Assembly (NCBI RefSeq): GCF_014696925.1
Contig: NZ_JACJQY010000001.1
Coordinates: 62,001-126,000 of the forward strand
DNA: 64,000 bases
From: Phormidium tenue FACHB-1050
GTDB lineage: Bacteria > Cyanobacteriota > Cyanobacteriia > Pseudanabaenales > Pseudanabaenaceae
Direction of reading: 5' to 3'
The notes under the pieces were generated by a model that saw only the letters and a program-made list of their open reading frames with translations, searched no databases and had not been told where the DNA came from. Position 1 is the stretch's first letter. Each line of letters begins with the position of its first letter. Shown here piece after piece: positions 1,538 through 30,870 of the stretch. The position numbers were made by a program, and so were the translations under genes.

Positions 1538-3934
1538 TTAAAGATGAACGGCGATCGCTATTTCATCGTCCTCATAGAGAGCCATATCGATGAAGTTACT
1601 TTCTACAACTTCACCATTGACTAGCATTTGTTTGACATCGCTATGATTAACTACTGTCAGCGAGAGCGTCTTACCGCGAAACTTGCGTTGTGCAGTAAAG
1701 CCCGACCATTCATTTGGAATTTTAGGATCGATAATCATGCCTGTGAAAGTAGGTTGAAATCCTAAAATGTAATCGATGCCAATGCGTAGCATCCATACTG
1801 CTGTACCTGTCAGCCATGAATGACTTGCCTGTCCTTGGGTTTCGTGATCTGGACTAGTCACATATTCAGGATAGACATAGGGTTCTGTTTCAAAGCGATC
1901 GCATTTATCATCAGTTGCCTGTGAGGAATTAATCGGCATCATCCGACGATAGATTTCCCATGCAAATTCGGTGTCACCATTGAGAAGCGAAGCGAGGACA
2001 AACCAAGATGAGGCATGGTTAAACACTGCGCCATTCTCTTTCTTCCCTGGCACACAACGACTAATTAACCCAACCGTATCATCAATTTCCGTAAATGAAG
2101 GAGCAACAATCTGCATCCCGAATGGTGTCGCCAGATATTCACGACTGCTTGCCATACAGCGATCGGCGCGATCCTTCGGGGCAAGTTCCGAAATTACTGC
2201 CCATGATTGGGCATTGACAAATATTTTGCCTTGACTTGCATTTGATACGCCAATTGGTTCGCCATTGTCACGAAAAGCACGTAAATACCATTCTCCATCC
2301 CAACAAATGTCATTAGTTACTTGACGCAGATGCTCATAGAATTTTTGGAATCTATTAATCGCATCACTATCTCCTTGATGTTCACAGACAGGCAGTGACT
2401 TATTCAACACATAGCCCAAGAAGAAAGCACCCCAAGTAGTTTCGCCCTTGCCTTGAGAGCCAACATGGTCGAGCGTATCATTCCAATCACCTGTAAAGAT
2501 GCGGGGCATTCCTCGTTCGCCTGTGTTGGCGATCGCAAAGTCTAGCGCTCTTACCAAATGCTCATAAACTGTCCCTGAAGTATCATCATGGTAAGGAACT
2601 ACTTCTTCTAAAATCGAGAAATCACCAGTTTCCTTGAGATATTCGACAATGCCAAAGGGAATCCAAAGCGGTGTGTCGGAATGATTGGTGCGTTCGCCTG
2701 TATTGGTTAGTACAAAATAATTATGTAGAGTGGATCCATCCTTAAATTGGAAGTTGAGTGCTTTAATCAATCTTTCGCGCACTTTTGCAGGATCAACCAT
2801 CACTACACCGAGAATATCTTGGAAGCGATCGCGCATTCCCGTACCAAACAGTAATCCGCCGTGATAGTAGCCCGAATTTCGCGCCATATCAAAGGTAACT
2901 GCTGCCTGATACTGATTCCAGACATTAATCATGGCGTTAAATGCTGCATCTGGCGTTTGCACCTGCACACAGGATAAATGAGCATCCCATTTCTGTTTAA
3001 GCTGCTCAAACTGGCGATCAACAACTTCCATAATCTTGCCCCCCTTTACAAGGGGGGTAGGGGGGATCTCTTTCGGCGCAATCTCCAAAACAACCGCGAA
3101 ATCAACAGAACTATTCGCCGCCAATGAGATCTTTGATTGCAAAGCTACCACAGGATCACCAGCCGTGATTTCTGTGTTTTTCATTACCCCTGTTTCTACA
3201 GCTACAGGGTTTGATTCCGATCGCCATCTGCCGATGAAAGTATCGAGACTACTATCAAAACCAGAAATCGGTAAACTCTGAGAAAAATAAATCTGATACT
3301 TCCAGTCAATATTTGGCTGCTTTACGGAAACGCCCTTATTCAACACCCAATAGCGGCGAGTGGCTACCAAGGCTTGCAAATCTTGATCAAAATGAATGTC
3401 CGTGAAATGCTTGTCATTCGGTTGATTAATTTGATCATTGAGAGCATTCCCCATCAGCAATTCCAAAAAGGAATAAACTTCTAAATCTCGCGTCTGTCCT
3501 GACAGTTCCGTTAATTTTACGCGCCAAACTTCAGCATTAGTATCAGTGGGAACGAAGTAAGTAATTTCCCCTCGAATTCCATTAATTTCGGTCGTGATTT
3601 TGGTATAGCCCTGTCCATGCCGACATTCATAGAAGTCATAGTTAAGATGAATTGTCGGCGACCAACTCAGTGACCAATACTTATCTGTAGCAGTATCTTT
3701 GATCATCACATAGCGACCAGGACGATCCCAAGGAAGGCAGTTATAACGCATCCGACTAATGCGGTTATCGCGGGGCGAATCCAAGAAGCTAAAGCCACCA
3801 CCTGTATGGGAAATCAGCCCTGCATACTGGCTATTCCACATATAGTTAAACCAAGGGCGCGGGGTGCGCGGATTTGTAATCACAAATTCCCGATAATCTT
3901 CGGTGTAATAGCCGTATTGGTTTGCGATCGCCAC
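1538..3934 (-). CDS. GH94 family glycoside phosphorylase (cellobiose phosphorylase type)
   Basis: This 798-residue protein has the layout of GH94 (formerly GT36) phosphorylases: an N-terminal beta-sandwich domain (about residues 1-280), a helical linker and an (alpha/alpha)6 barrel. The barrel contains the motif TGDWND near the middle, which holds the catalytic aspartate of cellobiose phosphorylases. These enzymes split beta-glucosides with phosphate, giving a sugar 1-phosphate; the actual sugar here cannot be read from sequence. No signal peptide is seen, so it should act in the cytoplasm. The start codon is GTG at 3934. A GC-rich repeat at 3038-3068 is translated in frame as PPTPLVKGG within the sandwich/linker region, an apparent insertion. 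The gene stands alone with its own terminator. Confidence 0.85.
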   Translation of the reverse strand: MAIANQYGYYTEDYREFVITNPRTPRPWFNYMWNSQYAGLISHTGGGFSFLDSPRDNRISRMRYNCLPWDRPGRYVMIKDTATDKYWSLSWSPTIHLNYDFYECRHGQGYTKITTEINGIRGEITYFVPTDTNAEVWRVKLTELSGQTRDLEVYSFLELLMGNALNDQINQPNDKHFTDIHFDQDLQALVATRRYWVLNKGVSVKQPNIDWKYQIYFSQSLPISGFDSSLDTFIGRWRSESNPVAVETGVMKNTEITAGDPVVALQSKISLAANSSVDFAVVLEIAPKEIPPTPLVKGGKIMEVVDRQFEQLKQKWDAHLSCVQVQTPDAAFNAMINVWNQYQAAVTFDMARNSGYYHGGLLFGTGMRDRFQDILGVVMVDPAKVRERLIKALNFQFKDGSTLHNYFVLTNTGERTNHSDTPLWIPFGIVEYLKETGDFSILEEVVPYHDDTSGTVYEHLVRALDFAIANTGERGMPRIFTGDWNDTLDHVGSQGKGETTWGAFFLGYVLNKSLPVCEHQGDSDAINRFQKFYEHLRQVTNDICWDGEWYLRAFRDNGEPIGVSNASQGKIFVNAQSWAVISELAPKDRADRCMASSREYLATPFGMQIVAPSFTEIDDTVGLISRCVPGKKENGAVFNHASSWFVLASLLNGDTEFAWEIYRRMMPINSSQATDDKCDRFETEPYVYPEYVTSPDHETQGQASHSWLTGTAVWMLRIGIDYILGFQPTFTGMIIDPKIPNEWSGFTAQRKFRGKTLSLTVVNHSDVKQMLVNGEVVESNFIDMALYEDDEIAIAVHL
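3038..3068. repeat. C-rich palindromic repeat inside the GH94 coding region
   Basis: GCCCCCCTTTAC and its near inverted copy AAGGGGGG form a hairpin continued by TAGGGGGGAT. The same kind of sequence recurs outside genes at 50154-50335. Here it keeps the frame and encodes PPTPLVKGG, so it looks like an insertion tolerated in a surface loop. Confidence 0.7.
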
Positions 3935-4067
3935 AGTTTAAAATTTTCCTTCTTTGTATAATAATCATGTTTTACGATTAATTTGTGACCATAAAACATA
4001 ACCAGATTGCGACATAGATTATCTCAATTTTTCACCCCAATTTTTTAGAGCAGTTTTAAATAAAACT

Positions 4068-4631
4068 ATGACAAGTACAATGATCTCTAAATTAGTAGTT
4101 GGTTTAACTTCACTGGGTGCGATATTTAGCACTGTTTTTCTTAGTCCACAGGCAACTACTCCTCAAACTCAACTTTCTGTCCCAATAGTCCAGAACTTTA
4201 GCCCCACCACGATCGCTAAAGCTCCTATTGCTAAGGCGTTGACAATTAATAAAACTCACATTTTTCTTGGAGAAATTAATCGCCGAGGCTTAGCAGTTGG
4301 TTATCATCATCGTCTTAATGGCAAAGATGCCAATAATGCAAAAATGGTCAAAATTACAGGACTGCCAAATCAGCAAGGGGTTTACATCGGTCGTGTTGAG
4401 ATTCGTAATCCTGCCAATGGTCAATGGGTTAGCAAAATTTCTAGTTCTTCTTTTTTCCCTGATCGCTGGTCTCAGGCTCAAGTTTTGTCAGAAATTAAAA
4501 GTGCTTTTAACTCAGCAAACAAATCTAAAGAACCTTGGCAAGGTACTTCAACCAGTGGGTTAAGAATTGAAGGTTATTATAATAAAGTGACAAATACAAT
4601 TACCACGGCTTATCCCATTTACCGTAGGTAA
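4068..4631 (+). CDS. Secreted EndoU-family ribonuclease
   Basis: The 187-residue protein begins with a hydrophobic signal-like segment (residues 6-25) and a short Ser/Thr/Pro-rich spacer. Residues 64-187 match the bacterial EndoU nuclease fold. Visible landmarks are H64 in HIFLGEI, the pair H80-H81 in VGYHH, K123, the FFPDRW block at 129-134, and the C-terminal TTAYPIY strand. EndoU enzymes cut RNA with two His and a Lys. In bacteria they usually occur as C-terminal toxin domains of large contact-dependent or polymorphic toxins; here the domain is alone behind an export signal. The next gene, 53 bases downstream on the same strand, may encode its immunity protein. Function as a toxin is inferred. 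Confidence 0.75.
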   Translation: MTSTMISKLVVGLTSLGAIFSTVFLSPQATTPQTQLSVPIVQNFSPTTIAKAPIAKALTINKTHIFLGEINRRGLAVGYHHRLNGKDANNAKMVKITGLPNQQGVYIGRVEIRNPANGQWVSKISSSSFFPDRWSQAQVLSEIKSAFNSANKSKEPWQGTSTSGLRIEGYYNKVTNTITTAYPIYRR

Positions 4632-4684
4632 GCGGAATGTACAAACCATCACATTCCTATTTACAGCATTTTCACTAGAGCATA

Positions 4685-5011
4685 ATGATCAATATCAAAT
4701 TCTATCGAGATGAAGAAGGCTACTTTCAAGCTGATACCGAACCTGAATATCAATTACTCGGTCAATACTTGCAATCAGAAATCCAAGGTGTTGCGGCTGT
4801 ATGTGCGGAAATTTTAGCAATAATCCAAGAGATTGAGATCGGCGATCGCATTCATGCTGAAGGGATCGGTAATGCCTATGGGTTAAGACTTACCCCAAAA
4901 ACTGCAAATATTTGGAGTGAGTACACAGAAACTGAACTAAGCTTAGAACTGCCTATTGCAGATTTTAAACAAGCTTTAGAGAGTTGTTACAAATTTTGCG
5001 ATCGCTTCTAA
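4685..5011 (+). CDS. Small acidic protein, possible immunity partner of the EndoU RNase
   Basis: This 108-residue acidic protein has no signal peptide or membrane segment, so it should stay in the cytoplasm. Its N terminus (IKFYRDEEGYF) and overall size recall the UPF0231/YacL-like proteins, but the likeness is weak and from memory. It directly follows the secreted EndoU gene on the same strand and precedes recF by 55 bases. A small acidic cytosolic protein next to an EndoU domain is the usual arrangement of toxin and immunity genes. The pairing is inferred only from position and charge. Confidence 0.5.
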   Translation: MINIKFYRDEEGYFQADTEPEYQLLGQYLQSEIQGVAAVCAEILAIIQEIEIGDRIHAEGIGNAYGLRLTPKTANIWSEYTETELSLELPIADFKQALESCYKFCDRF

Positions 5012-5066
5012 TCCCAATTCTGCGAAGTATAGCTATATTTTGCAAAATTAAGAAAAATACCCTGTA

Positions 5067-6197
5067 ATGTACCTTAAATCTCTACATATCAAGCAGTTTC
5101 GCAATTACATCGATCAGGAAGTTAACTTTACAGCACCCAAAACGGTAATCGTGGGTAATAATGCTCAAGGGAAATCTAACTTACTCGAAGCAGTTTTGCT
5201 ATTGGCAACTCTGCGATCGCATCGAGTTAGCAAGGATCGTGACTTAGTGCGTAATGGCGAAGTGATGGGGGAAATCACCGCAACTTGTCAGCGATCGCGC
5301 ATACCTGAGGGCTACCCCATAGAATTATTGATGCGGCTGCGAGCTAGTGGCAAACGGACTCTCAATGTGAATGGAGTCAATCAAGCCAGATCTCTAGATT
5401 TTTTGGGAAATTTGAATGCGGTCATGTTTTCGAGTTTAGATTTGGACTTGGTGCGAGGGAGTCCTGAAAGTCGGCGCAATTGGTTGGATACAGTTTTGAT
5501 TCAACTAGAGCCGATTTATATCAATCTTTTGCAACAATATAATCAAGTTTTGCGACAACGAAATGCATTATTAAAGTCAATCAAGCAGGGACAAATCACC
5601 TATGAACCTCAACAAATGGCGTTGTGGGATGCCCAATTAGTAACTGCGGGAACACGTTTGATTCGGAGGCGATCGCGGCTATTAGAGAGATTAACCCCGA
5701 TCGCAAGGACTTGGCATCAAGCAATTAGCGGTGGTAGTGAGTATTTAGAGATTACTTATGTTCCCAAATTTACTTTTGCACCAATGGATACAGTGGAGCA
5801 TATTCACCAAGCTTTTTTTGAGGCGATTTTGCATAAAGCCACCATTGAGCAACATCAAGGCTCAAGCTTAGTTGGTCCCCATCGTGATGAAGTTTCTCTG
5901 ACAATTAATACGACCCCTGCGCGAGAATATGGCTCTCAAGGTCAACAGCGAACTTTAGTACTAGCACTAAAACTTGCTGAGTTAGAATTGCTAGAATCGG
6001 TAGTTGGAGAACCACCATTATTATTATTAGATGATGTCCTTGCTGAACTTGATCTCCAAAGGCAAGATCATCTGCTGAATGCGATTGGCGATCGTGTCCA
6101 GACAATTATTACGACTACACATCTTGGCTCATTTGATGCTCAATGGCTAAATTCTGCCCGAATTTTTCAAGTAGAAAATGGCAAAATTTTATCTTAA
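5067..6197 (+). CDS. recF: DNA replication and repair protein RecF
   Basis: RecF is an ABC-type ATPase that loads RecA at gapped DNA together with RecO and RecR. The Walker A motif GNNAQGKS lies near residue 30, the ABC signature around EYGSQGQQRT near residue 290, and Walker B LLLDDVLAELD near residue 320. Length (376) is normal for RecF. It lies 55 bases after the small acidic gene and ends in a strong hairpin shared with the convergent cyAbrB gene. Confidence 0.95.
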   Translation: MYLKSLHIKQFRNYIDQEVNFTAPKTVIVGNNAQGKSNLLEAVLLLATLRSHRVSKDRDLVRNGEVMGEITATCQRSRIPEGYPIELLMRLRASGKRTLNVNGVNQARSLDFLGNLNAVMFSSLDLDLVRGSPESRRNWLDTVLIQLEPIYINLLQQYNQVLRQRNALLKSIKQGQITYEPQQMALWDAQLVTAGTRLIRRRSRLLERLTPIARTWHQAISGGSEYLEITYVPKFTFAPMDTVEHIHQAFFEAILHKATIEQHQGSSLVGPHRDEVSLTINTTPAREYGSQGQQRTLVLALKLAELELLESVVGEPPLLLLDDVLAELDLQRQDHLLNAIGDRVQTIITTTHLGSFDAQWLNSARIFQVENGKILS

Positions 6198-23318: not shown

Positions 23319-23873
23319 ATGAGAAAAAAAGACTTAACTTTACGCAGCGATCATAACTGGGAGTCAGAAGAAGGCTACAAAATCTTTGTTGCTGATCGTG
23401 GAGCGGTAAGATTTGATTTTCCCAAAGATTGGATTGTTAAGTTTAAAGAAAAGTCCGTTAGCTTCCATGACTTTGAGCCAACCGACGATACTGGCGCATT
23501 AGAAATGTCCTTTAATCGCTTACCTCCTCACGATTGGAATACATTTCCCCTCAAAAAAGCTCTACAACAAATCCTTGATGATGACGATCGCGAAATTCTA
23601 GCCAAAGGTAAAATCACTAGCGCTAACCGAGATGGCATGAAGCTCGTATGGACAGATCTGCGCTACATTGATGCCACTGAGAAGCGTGAAGCTACCTCTC
23701 GCATCCTGATTGGTATTGGTGGAAATGTCCAAGTCCTCTTCACCTTTGACTATTGGACGGAAGGCGAAGAACAAATGAGCCAAGTATGGGATGTCGTATT
23801 GCGATCGCTACGGTTGGGCTTATTTATTCCTGACCCTACCAGAGGACAAGTGGTTAACCCAAATTTAAACTAG
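23319..23873 (+). CDS. Conserved-looking hypothetical protein
   Basis: A 184-residue cytoplasmic protein without signal or membrane segment. The alternation of strands (AVRFDFPKDWIVKF, MKLVWTDLRYI, VQVLFTFDYW) and the C-terminal helix WDVVLRSLRLG recall PsbP/DcrB-like folds, but I cannot support a family. It has its own space between a terminator and the ParA-type gene. Confidence 0.6.
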   Translation: MRKKDLTLRSDHNWESEEGYKIFVADRGAVRFDFPKDWIVKFKEKSVSFHDFEPTDDTGALEMSFNRLPPHDWNTFPLKKALQQILDDDDREILAKGKITSANRDGMKLVWTDLRYIDATEKREATSRILIGIGGNVQVLFTFDYWTEGEEQMSQVWDVVLRSLRLGLFIPDPTRGQVVNPNLN

Positions 23874-24084
23874 AACTACTAGAAAACAAATAGAGGTATC
23901 TCTGGGAATAAATCTAGATATAGTGATGATTTTTTACCGATGACTTGGCGTTCTAATGGTGTATTGTTAATTCACTTAAAATGATTGAAGAGTAAAGGCT
24001 CACATAGTCTCAGCTCAGGTTTTAGGCTCAGACAGCCTCACTTTAAAACTCTTTAAAACTATATTTTTGCGGATATTCAAAGTA

Positions 24085-25047
24085 ATGGGAAAAGTAATAG
24101 CAACAGTAAATATGAAAGGTGGGGTCGGTAAAACCACCTTAACTGTCAATATTGCCACCTGCTTGGCGAAAATCCACCGCAAAAAGGTTTTAGTCGTCGA
24201 TTTAGATACCCAAATCAGCGCCACGCTCAGCATGATTTCACCAGCCGAGTTTGCTAAATGCCGCAAAGAAAATCGTACCTTGAGAAATCTAGTTAGTCAG
24301 GCGATCGCGCGTTACGGTGTCCAGATTAATGATCCAGAAGAAAAAGTCTACCAAATCAAAGATCTCGTAATTCCCCATGTCTGCAAAGTTCAAGGCTTAG
24401 ATCTGTTAGTGGGCGATATCGATTTATACGATGAGTTTCTCGTATCAGAAATGCTCTATAACCGATCGCTCCTATATGAAGAAAAGCAAACCTTTCAGCA
24501 GACTTGGAGTAAGTTTGAGCAAACTTTAATTAAAGGAATCCTTGCTCCTGCGCTGAAAAGTTATGACTTCATCATTCTCGATTGCGCTCCTGGTTATAAC
24601 TTAATTACGCGCAGCAGTATTGTCGCAAGTGATTTTTACCTAATGCCTGCAAGACCTGAGCCTCTGTCTGTAGTCGGTATTCAGCTATTAGAAAGACGTA
24701 TTGAGCGACTACGTGAAGTCTATCGAGAAGACAATTCGGTTAATATTCAACTTTTAGGTATTGTATTCAGTATGTCGGCTGGCTTTACGCTGAGCAGATA
24801 TTACCAAAAAGTAATGGATCGAGTAGCGGCGGACTTTAGCACCGCCAAGATTTTTAAAACCAAAATTCCCAATGATGTAAATATTGCTAAAGCTGTAGAT
24901 AATTTCATCCCTGCTTCTCTATCTAATCCTAATTCAGGCGGCGCAAAAGCTTTTGCTGAAGTCACAGTTGAGCTTTTGAAAAAGTTAGAAGTCTCTCTAG
25001 GCAGAAAAGAACAAACCTCAAGATTGAGTTTAGTTGATTTGGAATAA
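24085..25047 (+). CDS. ParA/MinD-type ATPase heading a nuclease cassette
   Basis: The deviant Walker A motif KGGVGKTT (residues 11-18) with the signature Lys, followed by VVDLDTQ and the switch DCAPGYN, defines a ParA-family ATPase. It is 320 residues from the ATG at 24085; a TTG at 24067 is possible but less likely. Between switch regions lies a longer helical insert (about residues 75-145) than in typical ParA. The downstream genes encode an Mrr-like nuclease and a TOPRIM protein on the same strand, 42 bases away. No ParB gene follows. A role in plasmid-style partition is therefore not obvious; an accessory ATPase role for the nuclease pair is possible. Confidence 0.85.
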   Translation: MGKVIATVNMKGGVGKTTLTVNIATCLAKIHRKKVLVVDLDTQISATLSMISPAEFAKCRKENRTLRNLVSQAIARYGVQINDPEEKVYQIKDLVIPHVCKVQGLDLLVGDIDLYDEFLVSEMLYNRSLLYEEKQTFQQTWSKFEQTLIKGILAPALKSYDFIILDCAPGYNLITRSSIVASDFYLMPARPEPLSVVGIQLLERRIERLREVYREDNSVNIQLLGIVFSMSAGFTLSRYYQKVMDRVAADFSTAKIFKTKIPNDVNIAKAVDNFIPASLSNPNSGGAKAFAEVTVELLKKLEVSLGRKEQTSRLSLVDLE

Positions 25048-25089
25048 ATATATCTAACCACTAATATAAATATTAAAAGAGGGCTAAAA

Positions 25090-25641
25090 TTGGCGACGGC
25101 AGCAGAATACGAAAGTATAATTAAATCTCTGCAATGGGATGCATTACGCTCTCTATGGGACAATATTGAAAAACGTAATACTCCTGATTGGGAATCGGGT
25201 AAGGCTTTTGAATATTTAATAATACGAGCATTTGAACTTGATGGAGCGGAGGTAAGATACCCTTACAACGTGCGTCTATTTGAAGAAGAAATAGAGCAAA
25301 TTGATGGAGCAATCCACATCTCTGAATTTTCTTGTCTAGTTGAGAGTAAAGACTTTGCAGACAAAAAAGTTGATATTGCTCCTATAGCTAAACTTCGTAA
25401 TCAGCTTTTACGTCGTCCGACAGCTACAGTTGGATTAGTGTTTAGTAGAACTGGTTTTACAGATCCAGCCCGTACCCTTTCCCGCTTTTTATCGCCACAC
25501 GCTATCCTGTTATGGGATGGCAACGAGATAGAGTATGCATTAGACAATCAAAAGATCTGTGAATTACTAATCCTAAAATACCGTGTATGTATAGAAGATG
25601 GACTACCTGATTACAACGTTACAACAAGGAATATTCCATGA
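25090..25641 (+). CDS. Mrr-like PD-(D/E)XK nuclease
   Basis: A 183-residue protein with a PD-(D/E)XK core: E41 in the first helix (GKAFEYLIIRAFEL), D72 in QIDGAIH, and E85-x-K87 in VESKDF, followed by a helix ending LRNQLLRRP. This is the arrangement of Mrr-type restriction endonucleases. The start is a TTG at 25090 with an AGAGGG ribosome site six bases upstream. The ORF overlaps the next gene by four bases (ATGA), so the two products are probably made together. The target, such as modified DNA, is not predictable. Confidence 0.75.
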   Translation: MATAAEYESIIKSLQWDALRSLWDNIEKRNTPDWESGKAFEYLIIRAFELDGAEVRYPYNVRLFEEEIEQIDGAIHISEFSCLVESKDFADKKVDIAPIAKLRNQLLRRPTATVGLVFSRTGFTDPARTLSRFLSPHAILLWDGNEIEYALDNQKICELLILKYRVCIEDGLPDYNVTTRNIP

Positions 25642-26186
25642 TTGCATATATTATCTGTGAAGGAACTGCTGACAAACAACTACTTAAGACTGTTCTACCA
25701 GCAGCATCTCTAAATCAAGTAGAAATTGTTGTTGGTGGTGGCATATCTTCTGTCAAATCAATTGCACGTTCTCTGGTTGTTCGTAGGCAAACGCCTGTTG
25801 TGATAGTTGTTGATTCTGATTCAATAGTGCCAGAATTAGTGCAGATGAGGATTAGAGAAATTACCGAGATAGTTGAAAGCGTTTCTGTAAATACTCCTGT
25901 AAAGGTAATGCTTTTTGTTCCTGAGATAGAAGTGATCTTGTTCCAAGATCTTCATTTGCTTACAAGATTATTAGGTTATAGTCCATCTCAAGCTGATCTT
26001 AATTTAGCTGTTGTACAACCACGTAAGGTGTTGGAAAAATTGTTGACTCAATCTGAGAAGGTACATAGTCTTAATGAAATTCTTGATTTATTAGCCAATG
26101 AAAATATTAATAATCTGCGCGATTTTCCAACTATACAAGAACTAATCAAGTTTCTCCAGTCCGTTCGTGAGCCAGTCAATGCTTAA
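25638..26186 (+). CDS. TOPRIM-domain protein
   Basis: The first 65 residues have the TOPRIM pattern: E8 in IICEGTADKQ and the DxD pair D59/D61 in VVDSDS. A later PEIEVILF motif (E96, E98) recalls the TOPRIM variants in OLD-type and DUF4276/RloB-like defence proteins. TOPRIM domains coordinate metal for DNA or RNA cleavage. At 182 residues it lacks any ATPase domain of its own. It overlaps the Mrr-like gene by four bases, and the ParA-type ATPase lies just upstream. Membership of a defence cassette is inferred. Confidence 0.7.
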   Translation: MIAYIICEGTADKQLLKTVLPAASLNQVEIVVGGGISSVKSIARSLVVRRQTPVVIVVDSDSIVPELVQMRIREITEIVESVSVNTPVKVMLFVPEIEVILFQDLHLLTRLLGYSPSQADLNLAVVQPRKVLEKLLTQSEKVHSLNEILDLLANENINNLRDFPTIQELIKFLQSVREPVNA

Positions 26187-26253
26187 AAGCAAAACAACGA
26201 AACTTTAATGATAGTCAAGTTCTACTTCGCCGATTATTCGTAATCTCTTATCG

Positions 26254-26679
26254 ATGACAACTAGAATACAAAATGCACTTTTTAATCTAGGCTTAGCAAC
26301 ACTCTCTACCCATGAATTAGATGCTGTTACTCAGTCAGAGTGGCATCTTCTCTATATTTTGAACAACCTCCCAGAAACAATTGCAGCAGACACTTTTGTA
26401 GTTCTTCACGTTCCATTATTTACGATTATTTTTGGGTTGGGATTTAACGAAAATCTGAAAGTTAAGAAGTGGGCAAGAATTATCTTTAGCTTGTTTTTGA
26501 TTATTCATGCAGGATTACATAAAGCTCTCGAAAATCATCCCCTATATACTTTTAACTCACTGATTTCAAAATGTTTGATTTTTGGGGCAGGAGTAATTGG
26601 TTTGATGTACTTAATTACTTTGATTGGAGAGAGATTTACTTATTCGCCAAAAACTGAAACCCAAAACTCCGCTAATTAA
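26254..26679 (+). CDS. Four-helix membrane protein (DUF6713-like)
   Basis: A 141-residue membrane protein with four hydrophobic segments. The N-terminal motif THELDAVTQSEWHLL with further His residues at the membrane edges (LHVPLF, IHAGLH) resembles the DUF6713 type as I remember it. Function unknown. It follows the TOPRIM gene by 67 bases. Confidence 0.6.
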   Translation: MTTRIQNALFNLGLATLSTHELDAVTQSEWHLLYILNNLPETIAADTFVVLHVPLFTIIFGLGFNENLKVKKWARIIFSLFLIIHAGLHKALENHPLYTFNSLISKCLIFGAGVIGLMYLITLIGERFTYSPKTETQNSAN

Positions 26680-26708
26680 AAAGATGCTACATCAGAAAGT
26701 AAATTACC

Positions 26709-27071
26709 ATGACGATAACGCTCTCTGTAGGAGACTTTGCTAATCGTAAAAAGTCTAACATGAAGACTGACGAGGTGTTTTTTGTGTCAGGAATTTTGTG
26801 GCTAGATGAAAAGGAAGCAAGACTTTATAATTGGCAGGATGACCAATCTATAGCCATTGCTGATGATGAAGCCTATGTAAAAATGCGATCGCACTTCTCT
26901 GGTGATTATCTTGATGATGTATTATTACAAGCTTGGGTACGCGATCGCGATGATTGGCTAGAAATTTATAATGTGTATTGGTTTGCTTGTAGAGATAGAA
27001 AACATCCTGTTAAATGGAGTGATGAGATTTCTGTAAGACCATTGCCAGCACAGTATGATTATTTTCGTTGA
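26709..27071 (+). CDS. Hypothetical protein
   Basis: A 120-residue soluble acidic protein with several Trp/Tyr-rich strands (SGILWLDEKEARLYNW, IYNVYWFACRD). The first 17 residues are polar and basic; the ATG at 26760 (MKTDEVFF) is an alternative start. No family recognised. Confidence 0.55.
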   Translation: MTITLSVGDFANRKKSNMKTDEVFFVSGILWLDEKEARLYNWQDDQSIAIADDEAYVKMRSHFSGDYLDDVLLQAWVRDRDDWLEIYNVYWFACRDRKHPVKWSDEISVRPLPAQYDYFR

Positions 27072-27104: not shown

Positions 27105-27296
27105 ATGCACAATCATCTCCAGAAATTAGAAAGCGATCGCTTATCATCTGCTGCACAAAAATCGAAACCTTGTCATCACTGCGAAGGTAAAGGCTACATA
27201 GAACTACGAGACTGTTCTGGAGAAATTCAACGAGAAGAAAATTGCTCGTTTTGCCACGGGAAAGGAAAAATTGAATCTGATAATTTTACGGAGTAG
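27105..27296 (+). CDS. Small DnaJ-type zinc-finger protein
   Basis: A 63-residue protein with two CxxCxGxG-type motifs, CHHCEGKG and CSFCHGKG, as in the cysteine-rich domain of DnaJ. Two motifs can form one zinc site. It may be a small redox or RNA/protein-binding factor. It lies 33 bases after the preceding hypothetical gene. Confidence 0.65.
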   Translation: MHNHLQKLESDRLSSAAQKSKPCHHCEGKGYIELRDCSGEIQREENCSFCHGKGKIESDNFTE

Positions 27297-29074: not shown

Positions 29075-30013
29075 TTACCATGCATCAATAATTTTCTGCA
29101 TAGTCTTTTCAGCAAGTCCCTGAACATTAATAATTACATCTTGAATTGATAGAAATTTCTGATTTGGTTGCTGTAATCTTAGTTCATCAATAAGACGAGC
29201 AAACTTGATATTAGTTTTCGCTGATTTTGCTAACTTATTCTGCAACTCAGCAAAATTAAGTCTATTCAAGTCATCAAGTACCTGCAAGACTTTTGGATCG
29301 GTATTGTCAATATTTTTAGCTTTTGCTGTTTTTTTAGAGGTCTCGGTCTTGGGTTTATTAGTTTTAGGAGTAGTCTTAGATTTTGAAGCGGGCTTTGATT
29401 TACTAATCTTTTCTGGTAACGGTTCTGGAGCTAGATTACTAGGTTGATTATTAGTGCCAAGGACTGTATGAATAGGAACAAGGGATAATGACTGACGAAA
29501 ATCGGTTAAATGAGCATCCAGTTGTTTGGTTACTTGACTTACAATTGTTTGCAAACTAGCACTGATTCGTTCTTCAATGGTTTTCTCGATCGCCGCAGTT
29601 AGTTTTTGCTCTAATCGCTTCGCGATCGCTTCTTCGATTTTTGCTAAATCTGGAGAGGTTTCATGATTCACTGGTGGAGTATCGGAAATAGGTGTTGGCG
29701 CAGAATGCGATCTCAAAAAGTTATATTGCTCAAGAATCGTTGACTCTAAATCAGGTGGCACGACATAGGCGCGGATTGCTGTAAACTGCTCATCTATTTC
29801 CTGCGCTTTAATTGCTGCGTAATATTCAAAATGACCTTTCAAAACTTCAAAGGCGATCGGTGAAACTTTGCGGACAAGGATCGGACTAACGGTATCACCA
29901 GCCTTTAAAAATAAATTAGCAAGATTCTCAACTTGATGGTCTGGAAATTGAGAACTGGATACTGCGGGCGGCGTGATTGTATCGAGATCGATGGAAGAAG
30001 TTAATAGACTCAT
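29075..30013 (-). CDS. ParB-like partition protein lacking a canonical HTH
   Basis: Residues 20-110 resemble the ParB N-terminal nuclease-like domain: SPILVRK, then FEVLKGHFEYYAA where ParB proteins have a GERRYRAA-type motif. No helix-turn-helix follows; instead come a helical region (120-185), a Lys/Ser/Thr-rich linker (about 195-230) and a C-terminal helical domain (about 235-312) with a helix-hairpin-helix-like end (VQGLAEKTMQKII). The gene starts inside the stop of a ParA gene (ATGA overlap), so the two form a partition-type pair. Confidence 0.75.
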   Translation of the reverse strand: MSLLTSSIDLDTITPPAVSSSQFPDHQVENLANLFLKAGDTVSPILVRKVSPIAFEVLKGHFEYYAAIKAQEIDEQFTAIRAYVVPPDLESTILEQYNFLRSHSAPTPISDTPPVNHETSPDLAKIEEAIAKRLEQKLTAAIEKTIEERISASLQTIVSQVTKQLDAHLTDFRQSLSLVPIHTVLGTNNQPSNLAPEPLPEKISKSKPASKSKTTPKTNKPKTETSKKTAKAKNIDNTDPKVLQVLDDLNRLNFAELQNKLAKSAKTNIKFARLIDELRLQQPNQKFLSIQDVIINVQGLAEKTMQKIIDAW

Positions 30014-30870
30014 GCACTTAATCCTACTTTTTCAAGAACTTCATTAGCTAACTCTTCAAACTCGGCAGCAGATATCGAGTCGGGCTTAAAGTCAAAAATC
30101 GACTTAGGATCAGGAATTTGGCGATCGCCTTCAAATATAAAATTATCAATAGCCCTTGATAAGTCTTCACGCTGAAAAATTCTGGTCTCCAATACAGGAA
30201 ATCCATAACGCTCTTCAACTACCTTTTCTTGTTTAGGCAAAGTTGCTTTAATATAATTAGCATTGGTCAAGATTTTGGAAGGTAATACACCTAAAATCGC
30301 GATAGCAGGTTTATTGATGAAAGTCCGAAACTCATCAATTTCCTCGACAAAGTTTTTGACATTGCGTAAACCTTCATTGGCAAAAGGTTTGAGGTCAGAG
30401 GGAATGATTAAATAATCACAGGCAATTAGCGCAATCTTGGCATAGAGATTTAGAGATGGCGGCGTATCAATCAGAACTACATCATAGTCATCCTTCACCA
30501 GTTCCAATTTCTTGACTAGATGCGTTTTAGAACTATCCTTATCAACTAATCTTGCCTCTTGCCAAATCAAATTAATATGCGCGGGAATGACATCGACTGG
30601 GGGATAAGTAAAGGTACTCTTGAGTGCAATTTCAGGAATATAGTTAGATTTAGGATAGAAGACAACATTATAAATATTGCTATCTTTGAGCGTATCTTCT
30701 TCTTCAGTATCAAACTTCATTAGCCCTGCGGCATAGGTAGTATTCGCCTGACTGTCGAGGTCAATAATGAGAACTTTTAACCCCTTACGACTAATGGCAG
30801 CAGCGAGATTAATGGTAGTCGTGGTTTTACCTACACCACCTTTATTGTGATAGATCGCGATCGTTTTCAT
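30010..30870 (-). CDS. ParA-family partition ATPase
   Basis: A 286-residue ATPase with KGGVGKTT near residue 10, IIDLDSQANTT and the switch IDTPPSLN. The short N terminus, without an HTH domain, marks it as a type Ib or chromosomal ParA. It overlaps the ParB-like gene by four bases. It should organise DNA segregation; the parS site is not recognisable here. A second ParA-type gene lies 5 kb away at 24085 but in a different setting. Confidence 0.88.
   Translation of the reverse strand: MKTIAIYHNKGGVGKTTTTINLAAAISRKGLKVLIIDLDSQANTTYAAGLMKFDTEEEDTLKDSNIYNVVFYPKSNYIPEIALKSTFTYPPVDVIPAHINLIWQEARLVDKDSSKTHLVKKLELVKDDYDVVLIDTPPSLNLYAKIALIACDYLIIPSDLKPFANEGLRNVKNFVEEIDEFRTFINKPAIAILGVLPSKILTNANYIKATLPKQEKVVEERYGFPVLETRIFQREDLSRAIDNFIFEGDRQIPDPKSIFDFKPDSISAAEFEELANEVLEKVGLSA

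Follow-up and report, generated by a model that had tools for sequence, protein, structure and literature searches.

A mobile nuclease-TOPRIM gene pair behind a conserved ParA gene in cyanobacteria: a candidate toxin-antitoxin-like conflict cassette

Introduction

In a stretch of 64,000 nucleotides from Phormidium tenue FACHB-1050, referred to here as the window, genes for a ParA-type ATPase, an Mrr-like nuclease and a TOPRIM protein follow one another so closely that they have the appearance of a single operon. This raises the question of whether the three constitute one module and, if not, which of them belong together and to what effect. The first-pass annotation of this DNA had read the locus as a three-gene unit, possibly directed against phages or plasmids, in which the ATPase positions or gates two nucleases.

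The three genes and their products

The arrangement described in that annotation was borne out by the ORF coordinates of the window, with all three genes on one strand, a gap of 42 bases between the ATPase and nuclease genes and an overlap of four bases between the nuclease and TOPRIM genes. The first gene (24085-25047, + strand), here termed ParA1, encodes a solitary ParA/MinD-type ATPase (AAA_31, 1.7e-32 in Pfam) and starts at an ATG inside a 326-codon ORF that opens with TTG. The two genes of the cassette follow, encoding an Mrr-like nuclease of 183 aa (25090-25641, + strand, TTG start) and a TOPRIM plus helical-domain protein of 182 aa (25638-26186, + strand, ATG start). As had also been remarked, no ParB gene follows ParA1, the next gene according to the window ORFs and Pfam being that of the Mrr-like nuclease. 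Profile searches with all three proteins, which the annotation had itself proposed, left each domain call standing. Further downstream, and outside the module, lies a gene for a DUF6713 protein (26254-26679, + strand; DUF6713, 2.3e-21). The region 29075-30870 on the - strand holds a second ParA gene (AAA_31, 3.3e-53), which overlaps by four bases the gene for a 312-aa partner that is likely ParB-like given a weak ParB_N match (0.027); this gene order was also seen in loci L061 and L009.

The nuclease carries the full E...D...ExK set with which it had been credited (E41, D72, E85-x-K87), and its match to Mrr_cat (PF04471, 2.6e-7) lies above the curated cut-off. Mrr_cat was matched by 16 of 17 aligned nuclease members and is the sole domain recognised in the 183-aa protein by Pfam-type profile searches. 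No match was obtained to the sequences of solved structures or to the PADLOC profiles. The structure model was unusable (pLDDT 35), and the identity of the nuclease rests on sequence.

The TOPRIM protein was recognised by sequence only weakly and below cut-off (DUF3226, 0.0019; OLD-like_TOPRIM, 0.0079; Pfam), and its comparison with the sequences of solved structures gave chance-level matches only. The residues singled out previously, E8 and a DSD motif (D59-S-D61), are present, and the domain call is upheld mainly by fold and motifs. An AlphaFold model (m99a024817204; mean pLDDT 81.3, three-row alignment) matched the C-terminal regions of OLD nucleases (6njx, 6njv, 6nk8 and 6njw) with Z-scores of 11.7-12.1 over 164-168 residues and an rmsd of 3.4-3.6 A, and a Foldseek search with the same model placed two OLD entries on top (E 8.5e-5 and 3.7e-4). 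Thermus OLD was matched at Z 10.1 and the GajA entries at Z 7.9-8.4; matches to lumazine synthase and Rossmann-like entries, reaching Z 10.1, were attributed to a common arrangement and regarded as unrelated. Against PADLOC, weak matches of the HEC-01B/mad4 type were obtained (HEC-01B at 6.5e-6 for the window protein, and at best 1.7e-6 among 19 members). No ATPase domain was found in the 182-aa protein by Pfam or in the OLD C-terminal model, and the protein is predicted by its model to be an OLD-nuclease C-terminal fold, comprising TOPRIM and helical domain, without the ATPase.

ParA1 is a conserved neighbour of the pair

The distribution of ParA1 (cut-off E<=1e-60) was surveyed in 38 genomes of the order, 26 of them from the genus of the window. 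ParA1 was present in 25 of the 26 same-genus genomes, whereas a strong nuclease match was found in only four of these (G000, G012, G022 and G019, in the last split over two contigs), with a fifth (G027) retaining an 18-codon remnant; the nuclease was also strongly matched in G005, which belongs to another genus. Searches of 28 further loci with tblastn placed ParA1 beside the pair in the window, L061, L063 and L009 only (Pseudanabaena), and in G022 approximately 2 Mb separate ParA1 from the pair. The proposal of a three-gene unit was thus not sustained by these unequal distributions, nor was a conserved three-gene order recovered across genomes beyond the four loci in which ParA1 adjoins the pair.

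In blastn comparisons with ParA1 loci lacking the pair, homology to the window stopped at 25045-25054 in nearly all cases, divergence starting within a few bases of the ParA1 stop codon, and where homology resumed it did so at 26233, 26270, 26703-26709 or 27119-27168. ParA1 is a conserved gene of the genus that forms the left border of an insertion slot (25048-26232), occupied here by the cassette and in relatives by other genes or by nothing, and it is not part of the module. In some relatives the slot ends on the right at the DUF6713 gene, which in L121 directly follows ParA1. On a Leptolyngbya plasmid (L135), annotated ParA/ParB genes lie approximately 2.3 kb downstream of the pair and seem to serve partition of the plasmid itself. 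A scan of 23850-26300, blind to other promoter types, detected no sigma-70-like site on the + strand. With none between ParA1 and the pair, read-through from ParA1 is possible; the pair may be co-transcribed with ParA1, though they do not form a linked unit. The locus illustrates how genes packed as closely as in an operon can instead mark an insertion slot adjoining a conserved gene.

Distribution and coupling of the two-gene cassette

A survey of 386 genomes of the phylum returned TOPRIM matches in 21, that of G270 being weak and to another protein, and nuclease matches in 26, among which are several weak ones to fragments or to other Mrr proteins. Among 217 genomes of the G281 family, the TOPRIM gene was matched in 54 (E<=1e-10) and the nuclease gene in 49 (E<=0.001), broken copies included. 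Where both genes were present they were adjacent and co-directional, in many different contexts (28 loci). The overlap of four bases was retained in 35 of 43 pairs, which suggests co-dosage, and the protein distances of nuclease and TOPRIM correlated with a rho of 0.835, a value reached in 0 of 2000 permutations. The real unit is a mobile two-gene cassette, with a scattered occurrence in cyanobacteria and on one Rhizobium plasmid.

Instances on plasmids comprised that of Rhizobium beringeri (L136), in which the pair has a short TOPRIM partner of 129-131 aa, and those of Leptolyngbya NIES-3755, which carries the pair on two plasmids, the nuclease being split on one. A search of plasmids with the TOPRIM query at 1e-3 gave no match, these two cases having been missed because the TOPRIM proteins beside the NIES-3755 and R. 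beringeri nucleases are diverged. Plasmid matches to the nuclease in Aurantiacibacter, Sinorhizobium and Methylobacterium look like other Mrr-type proteins; at two of the Aurantiacibacter and Methylobacterium loci, no TOPRIM family match was found among three neighbours. Weak nuclease matches of 309-326 aa (L051-L054, L056 and L057) were likewise assigned to other Mrr-type proteins and kept out of the tally described below. None of the isolated nuclease fragments or weak matches seen in G076, G587:C1:6249771, G583:C32, G542:C1162, G455:C1:2625747, G124 and G111:C5 was full-length, nor was a second nuclease fragment that in G456 lies 1.2 kb away from the pair. An origin from phages or viruses was rejected on finding no match in phages (E<=0.01) or viral contigs, in scans that reach close relatives only.

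Several individual loci bear on how the pair may move or change. In L079, L081 and L143, all of one genus, near-identical repeats of 32-35 bp flank the cassette region and offer a possible route of mobility. Between L079 and both L148 and L147, the nuclease genes differ with a dS of 0.07-0.08 and the TOPRIM genes with a dS of 0.40-0.51, a mismatch that suggests recombination or partner exchange inside the pair. By eye, L071 and L076 were the only ones of 28 loci with ATPase-like ORFs adjoining the pair or what remains of it. In L071, at 3855-5671 on the - strand just downstream of the pair, such an ORF stands beside a TOPRIM-like ORF (starting 'LLVEGKDDE'), and by eye the two may represent a separate OLD- or PARIS-like system.

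Contents of the slot and toxin-antitoxin-type surroundings

Slot contents were listed for 22 ParA1 loci. The pair, or its TOPRIM gene, occupies the slot in L061 and L009. That of L114 holds a PIN toxin with a small partner, as does that of L116, judged by near-identical sequence. PhdYeFM/YoeB (YefM-YoeB) was found in L115, CHAT in L116 and AbiTii in L118, whilst L119-L121, L128-L130 and L132 run straight from ParA1 to small conserved genes; the loci not named here have other contents. ParE-like and PemK genes were also seen in L123 and L124, at a distance of more than 1 kb. Across L114-L132 the slot genes change between relatives, are mostly oriented like ParA1, and are of toxin-antitoxin (TA) or defence type. 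The first gene in the slots of L114 (6692-7447, - strand) and L117 (7423-8178, - strand) is a 252-aa ORF, the L114 copy of which has no Pfam match at 0.01; its D...(V)IEAK stretch resembles a PD-(D/E)XK site, and it is possibly another nuclease. The slots of L117 and L118 retain the small PIN partner but no PIN gene; this antitoxin-only remnant mirrors the nuclease/TOPRIM asymmetry reported below.

The neighbourhoods of the pair itself have a similar character. Matches to PIN, ParE, ParD, HicA, HicB or PemK were found near pairs in L074, L077, L078 and L083, among ORFs picked by eye. Of the 12 genomes of the G281 family that have both the pair and a close HicB, by our reading six have them within 4 kb of each other, or five of 11 when G287, the source of the query, was left out. 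Since HicB is common in this family (120 of 208 genomes), its proximity counts as supporting evidence only. Surroundings of this TA type fit a restrained toxic nuclease.

Active sites of the two proteins

The nuclease residues E41, D72, E85, K87 and Q105 were each invariant in 43 of 43 pairs. The corresponding site of the TOPRIM protein was traced by mapping E8, D12, D59, D61 and E98, by spacing, to E400, E404, D455, D457 and E508 of Bp OLD, as given in PMC6755086. This five-ligand set was complete in 27 of the 43 pairs, that of the window included, and in 15 of 25 orphan TOPRIM genes. The remaining 16 pairs displayed 13 patterns of incompleteness, including changes of E8 to V and D59 to N; several pairs had two or three ligand changes, and the most diverged rows may hold a few mis-set columns. 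Cleavage by Bp OLD is described in PMC6755086 as surviving single ligand changes, hence single losses in the TOPRIM protein are no proof of inactivity. The 'two nucleases' originally proposed are doubtful, the TOPRIM metal site being incomplete in 16 of 43 pairs whilst the Mrr-like site never varies.

One-sided decay of the pair

The decay of the two genes was tallied with profiles built from intact members, over rows that include all TOPRIM places found in the phylum and the G281 family, except the weak match of G270. The raw tally of 77 rows comprised 42 with both genes intact, 26 with an intact TOPRIM gene and a broken or absent nuclease, seven with both broken and two with an intact nuclease lacking an intact TOPRIM gene. 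Three rows at contig ends (L063, L064 and L084) were dropped, leaving 74 loci, and the Rhizobium pair L136, whose 131-aa partner had failed the automatic length rule, was counted as paired. The final tally was 43 loci with both genes intact, 25 with the TOPRIM gene only (nuclease broken or absent) and six with both lost; an intact nuclease without TOPRIM was found in none of the 74 scored loci. The nuclease lesions were varied, comprising 5' deletions, loss of the whole gene, stops and frameshifts, as well as an internal deletion in L009 and an in-frame fusion in L073.

As the nuclease and TOPRIM genes are equal in length, they present equal mutational targets. A sign test of 25:0 gave 6e-8 on counts taken without phylogenetic correction. 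It gave 3e-5 for 16:0, likewise without such correction, after removal of one shared deletion and the eight stop or frameshift cases (L010, L071, L134, L155, L199, L202, L211 and L214). In two of these loci, L134 (4001-4548) and L214 (1587-2220), the frameshift splits the nuclease at almost identical positions (model residues 94-104); both are short-TOPRIM loci of different organisms and contain no homopolymer run of six or more, the candidate explanations being shared descent, error or programmed frameshifting.

The dN/dS ratios of chosen pairs of orphan TOPRIM genes ranged from 0.14 to 0.47, with 0.68 between L152 and L155 on 18 changes, and those of chosen intact pairs were 0.17-0.35 for TOPRIM and 0.08-0.32 for the nuclease. 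A single nuclease deletion seems to be common to L081, L143 and L144; the TOPRIM genes of L081 and L143 have a dN/dS of 0.28, and that of L144 carries stops. Judged by these sequence comparisons, most orphan TOPRIM genes look still selected, beyond what would be expected of a plain left-over antitoxin. Protection against incoming cassettes is one explanation for their persistence, and an independent function is another.

Proposed action of the cassette and alternative explanations

We consider it reasonably probable that the pair is a mobile conflict cassette, akin to TA or abortive-defence systems, in which a toxic Mrr-type nuclease is restrained by a TOPRIM-fold partner. The small PD-(D/E)XK nuclease would be harmful to the cell when active. 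The TOPRIM gene, through its 4-bp overlap, is probably translationally coupled to the nuclease gene, and its product, of OLD C-terminal fold, would hold the nuclease in check, probably via direct binding, because the metal site of the TOPRIM protein itself is often incomplete. By analogy with TA and abortive infection, the nuclease would be released once its partner is lost or disturbed, whether the cause is a phage, a plasmid or the loss of the cassette. What is said here of the trigger, the target (DNA or RNA) and any role against phages is what we infer. Retention of the partner when the nuclease goes, and decay of the TOPRIM site but not of the nuclease site, fit a restrained toxic nuclease. 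Against this reading, orphan TOPRIM genes are mostly open, with 25 such loci against six in which both genes are broken; since orphans remain open, have complete ligands as often as those in pairs and show low dN/dS, the TOPRIM protein may have a further job. Its catalysis likewise remains conceivable, as the window protein keeps all five ligands and Bp OLD tolerates single changes. It is put forward more tentatively that a TOPRIM/OLD fold has been turned into an inhibitor, a catalytically dispensable antitoxin guarding an Mrr-type nuclease, and that orphans protect against incoming cassettes.

Were both proteins to cut nucleic acid, with either an invader or the infected cell as their joint target, the match of the TOPRIM model to OLD C-terminal nuclease regions (less good to GajA) and the complete ligands of 27 pairs, the window among them, would be accounted for; at least one ligand is missing in the other 16, however, the nuclease site never varies, and one-sided loss is not predicted for joint effectors, so this reading seems unlikely. 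We regard as improbable a small type IV-like restriction system, in which the nuclease would cut modified foreign DNA with the TOPRIM protein as an accessory or targeting subunit and not an inhibitor: it agrees with the Mrr_cat match and the patchy distribution, but no second domain is recognised in the 183-aa nuclease, and an accessory subunit would be expected to disappear no less often than the nuclease, which is not the case for the TOPRIM gene.

Little credence is likewise given to a TOPRIM protein that is beneficial on its own, beside a nuclease that is merely costly and decaying, with no inhibitory relation between them. The orphans do look to be under purifying selection, L081 and L143 included, yet the TOPRIM metal site lacks ligands in 16 of 43 pairs, L144 has TOPRIM stops despite the same nuclease deletion, and the conserved overlap points to co-dosage. 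The idea that ParA forms a module with two nucleases, which it would position or gate, draws on the tight spacing in the window, L061, L063 and L009, and on the ParA/ParB genes of L135, apparently those of the plasmid itself. It retains next to no probability, as ParA1 and the strong nuclease match differ so widely in occurrence in the genus and lie so far apart in G022, the remaining loci compared showed no ParA1 homologue close to the pair, and other genes fill the same slot in relatives; ParA as a third component is refuted as a conserved unit by distribution, spacing, homology break and slot contents.

Comparison with known systems

The first-pass annotation could name no described defence system of this composition, and our searches agree: the module is unnamed in the libraries searched, the idea of a conflict module is upheld, and neither a TOPRIM-Mrr pair nor a TOPRIM-fold antitoxin was found in the literature searched, which was covered in part. 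The module is small and also widespread: in one cyanobacterial family, 54 of 217 genomes gave a TOPRIM match, counting broken copies. AriB and GajA, the TOPRIM proteins of the defence systems considered here, are known to act as effectors by cutting nucleic acid; a TOPRIM protein that kept another nuclease in check would, if true, reverse that role.

Among the closest known systems is the OLD family (the class 2 C-terminal region, and GajA of Gabija), with which the window protein shares TOPRIM and helical domains over its whole 182 aa, as well as the Glu and DxD residues. It differs in having no ATPase domain, in the ligands being incomplete in 16 of 43 pairs, and in a partner gene that encodes an Mrr-type nuclease. 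PARIS (AriA-AriB), or HEC-01 of PADLOC, resembles the cassette in having TOPRIM as a separate protein, and weak HEC-01B matches were obtained. AriB is described in PMC10568477 as encoded beside the ATPase AriA, and in PMC12409363 as a tRNA nuclease effector; in the cassette, by contrast, the partner is a nuclease, and no ABC-type ATPase was found by Pfam among the neighbours in the window, where none is adjacent. From ParABS systems, which the adjoining ParA-type ATPase brings to mind, the locus is set apart by the lack of a ParB gene after ParA1 and by the unlinked occurrence of ParA1 and the pair. Mrr and type IV restriction enzymes share Mrr_cat and the E...D...ExK residues, but the cassette nuclease is of 183 aa only, has no second recognised domain and is accompanied by a constant small partner. 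Type II TA systems likewise consist of two short, overlapping, mobile genes, and the cassette resembles them further in its TA-type slots and in keeping the partner when the nuclease is lost; it differs in that its toxicity and neutralisation are proposed from sequence comparison.
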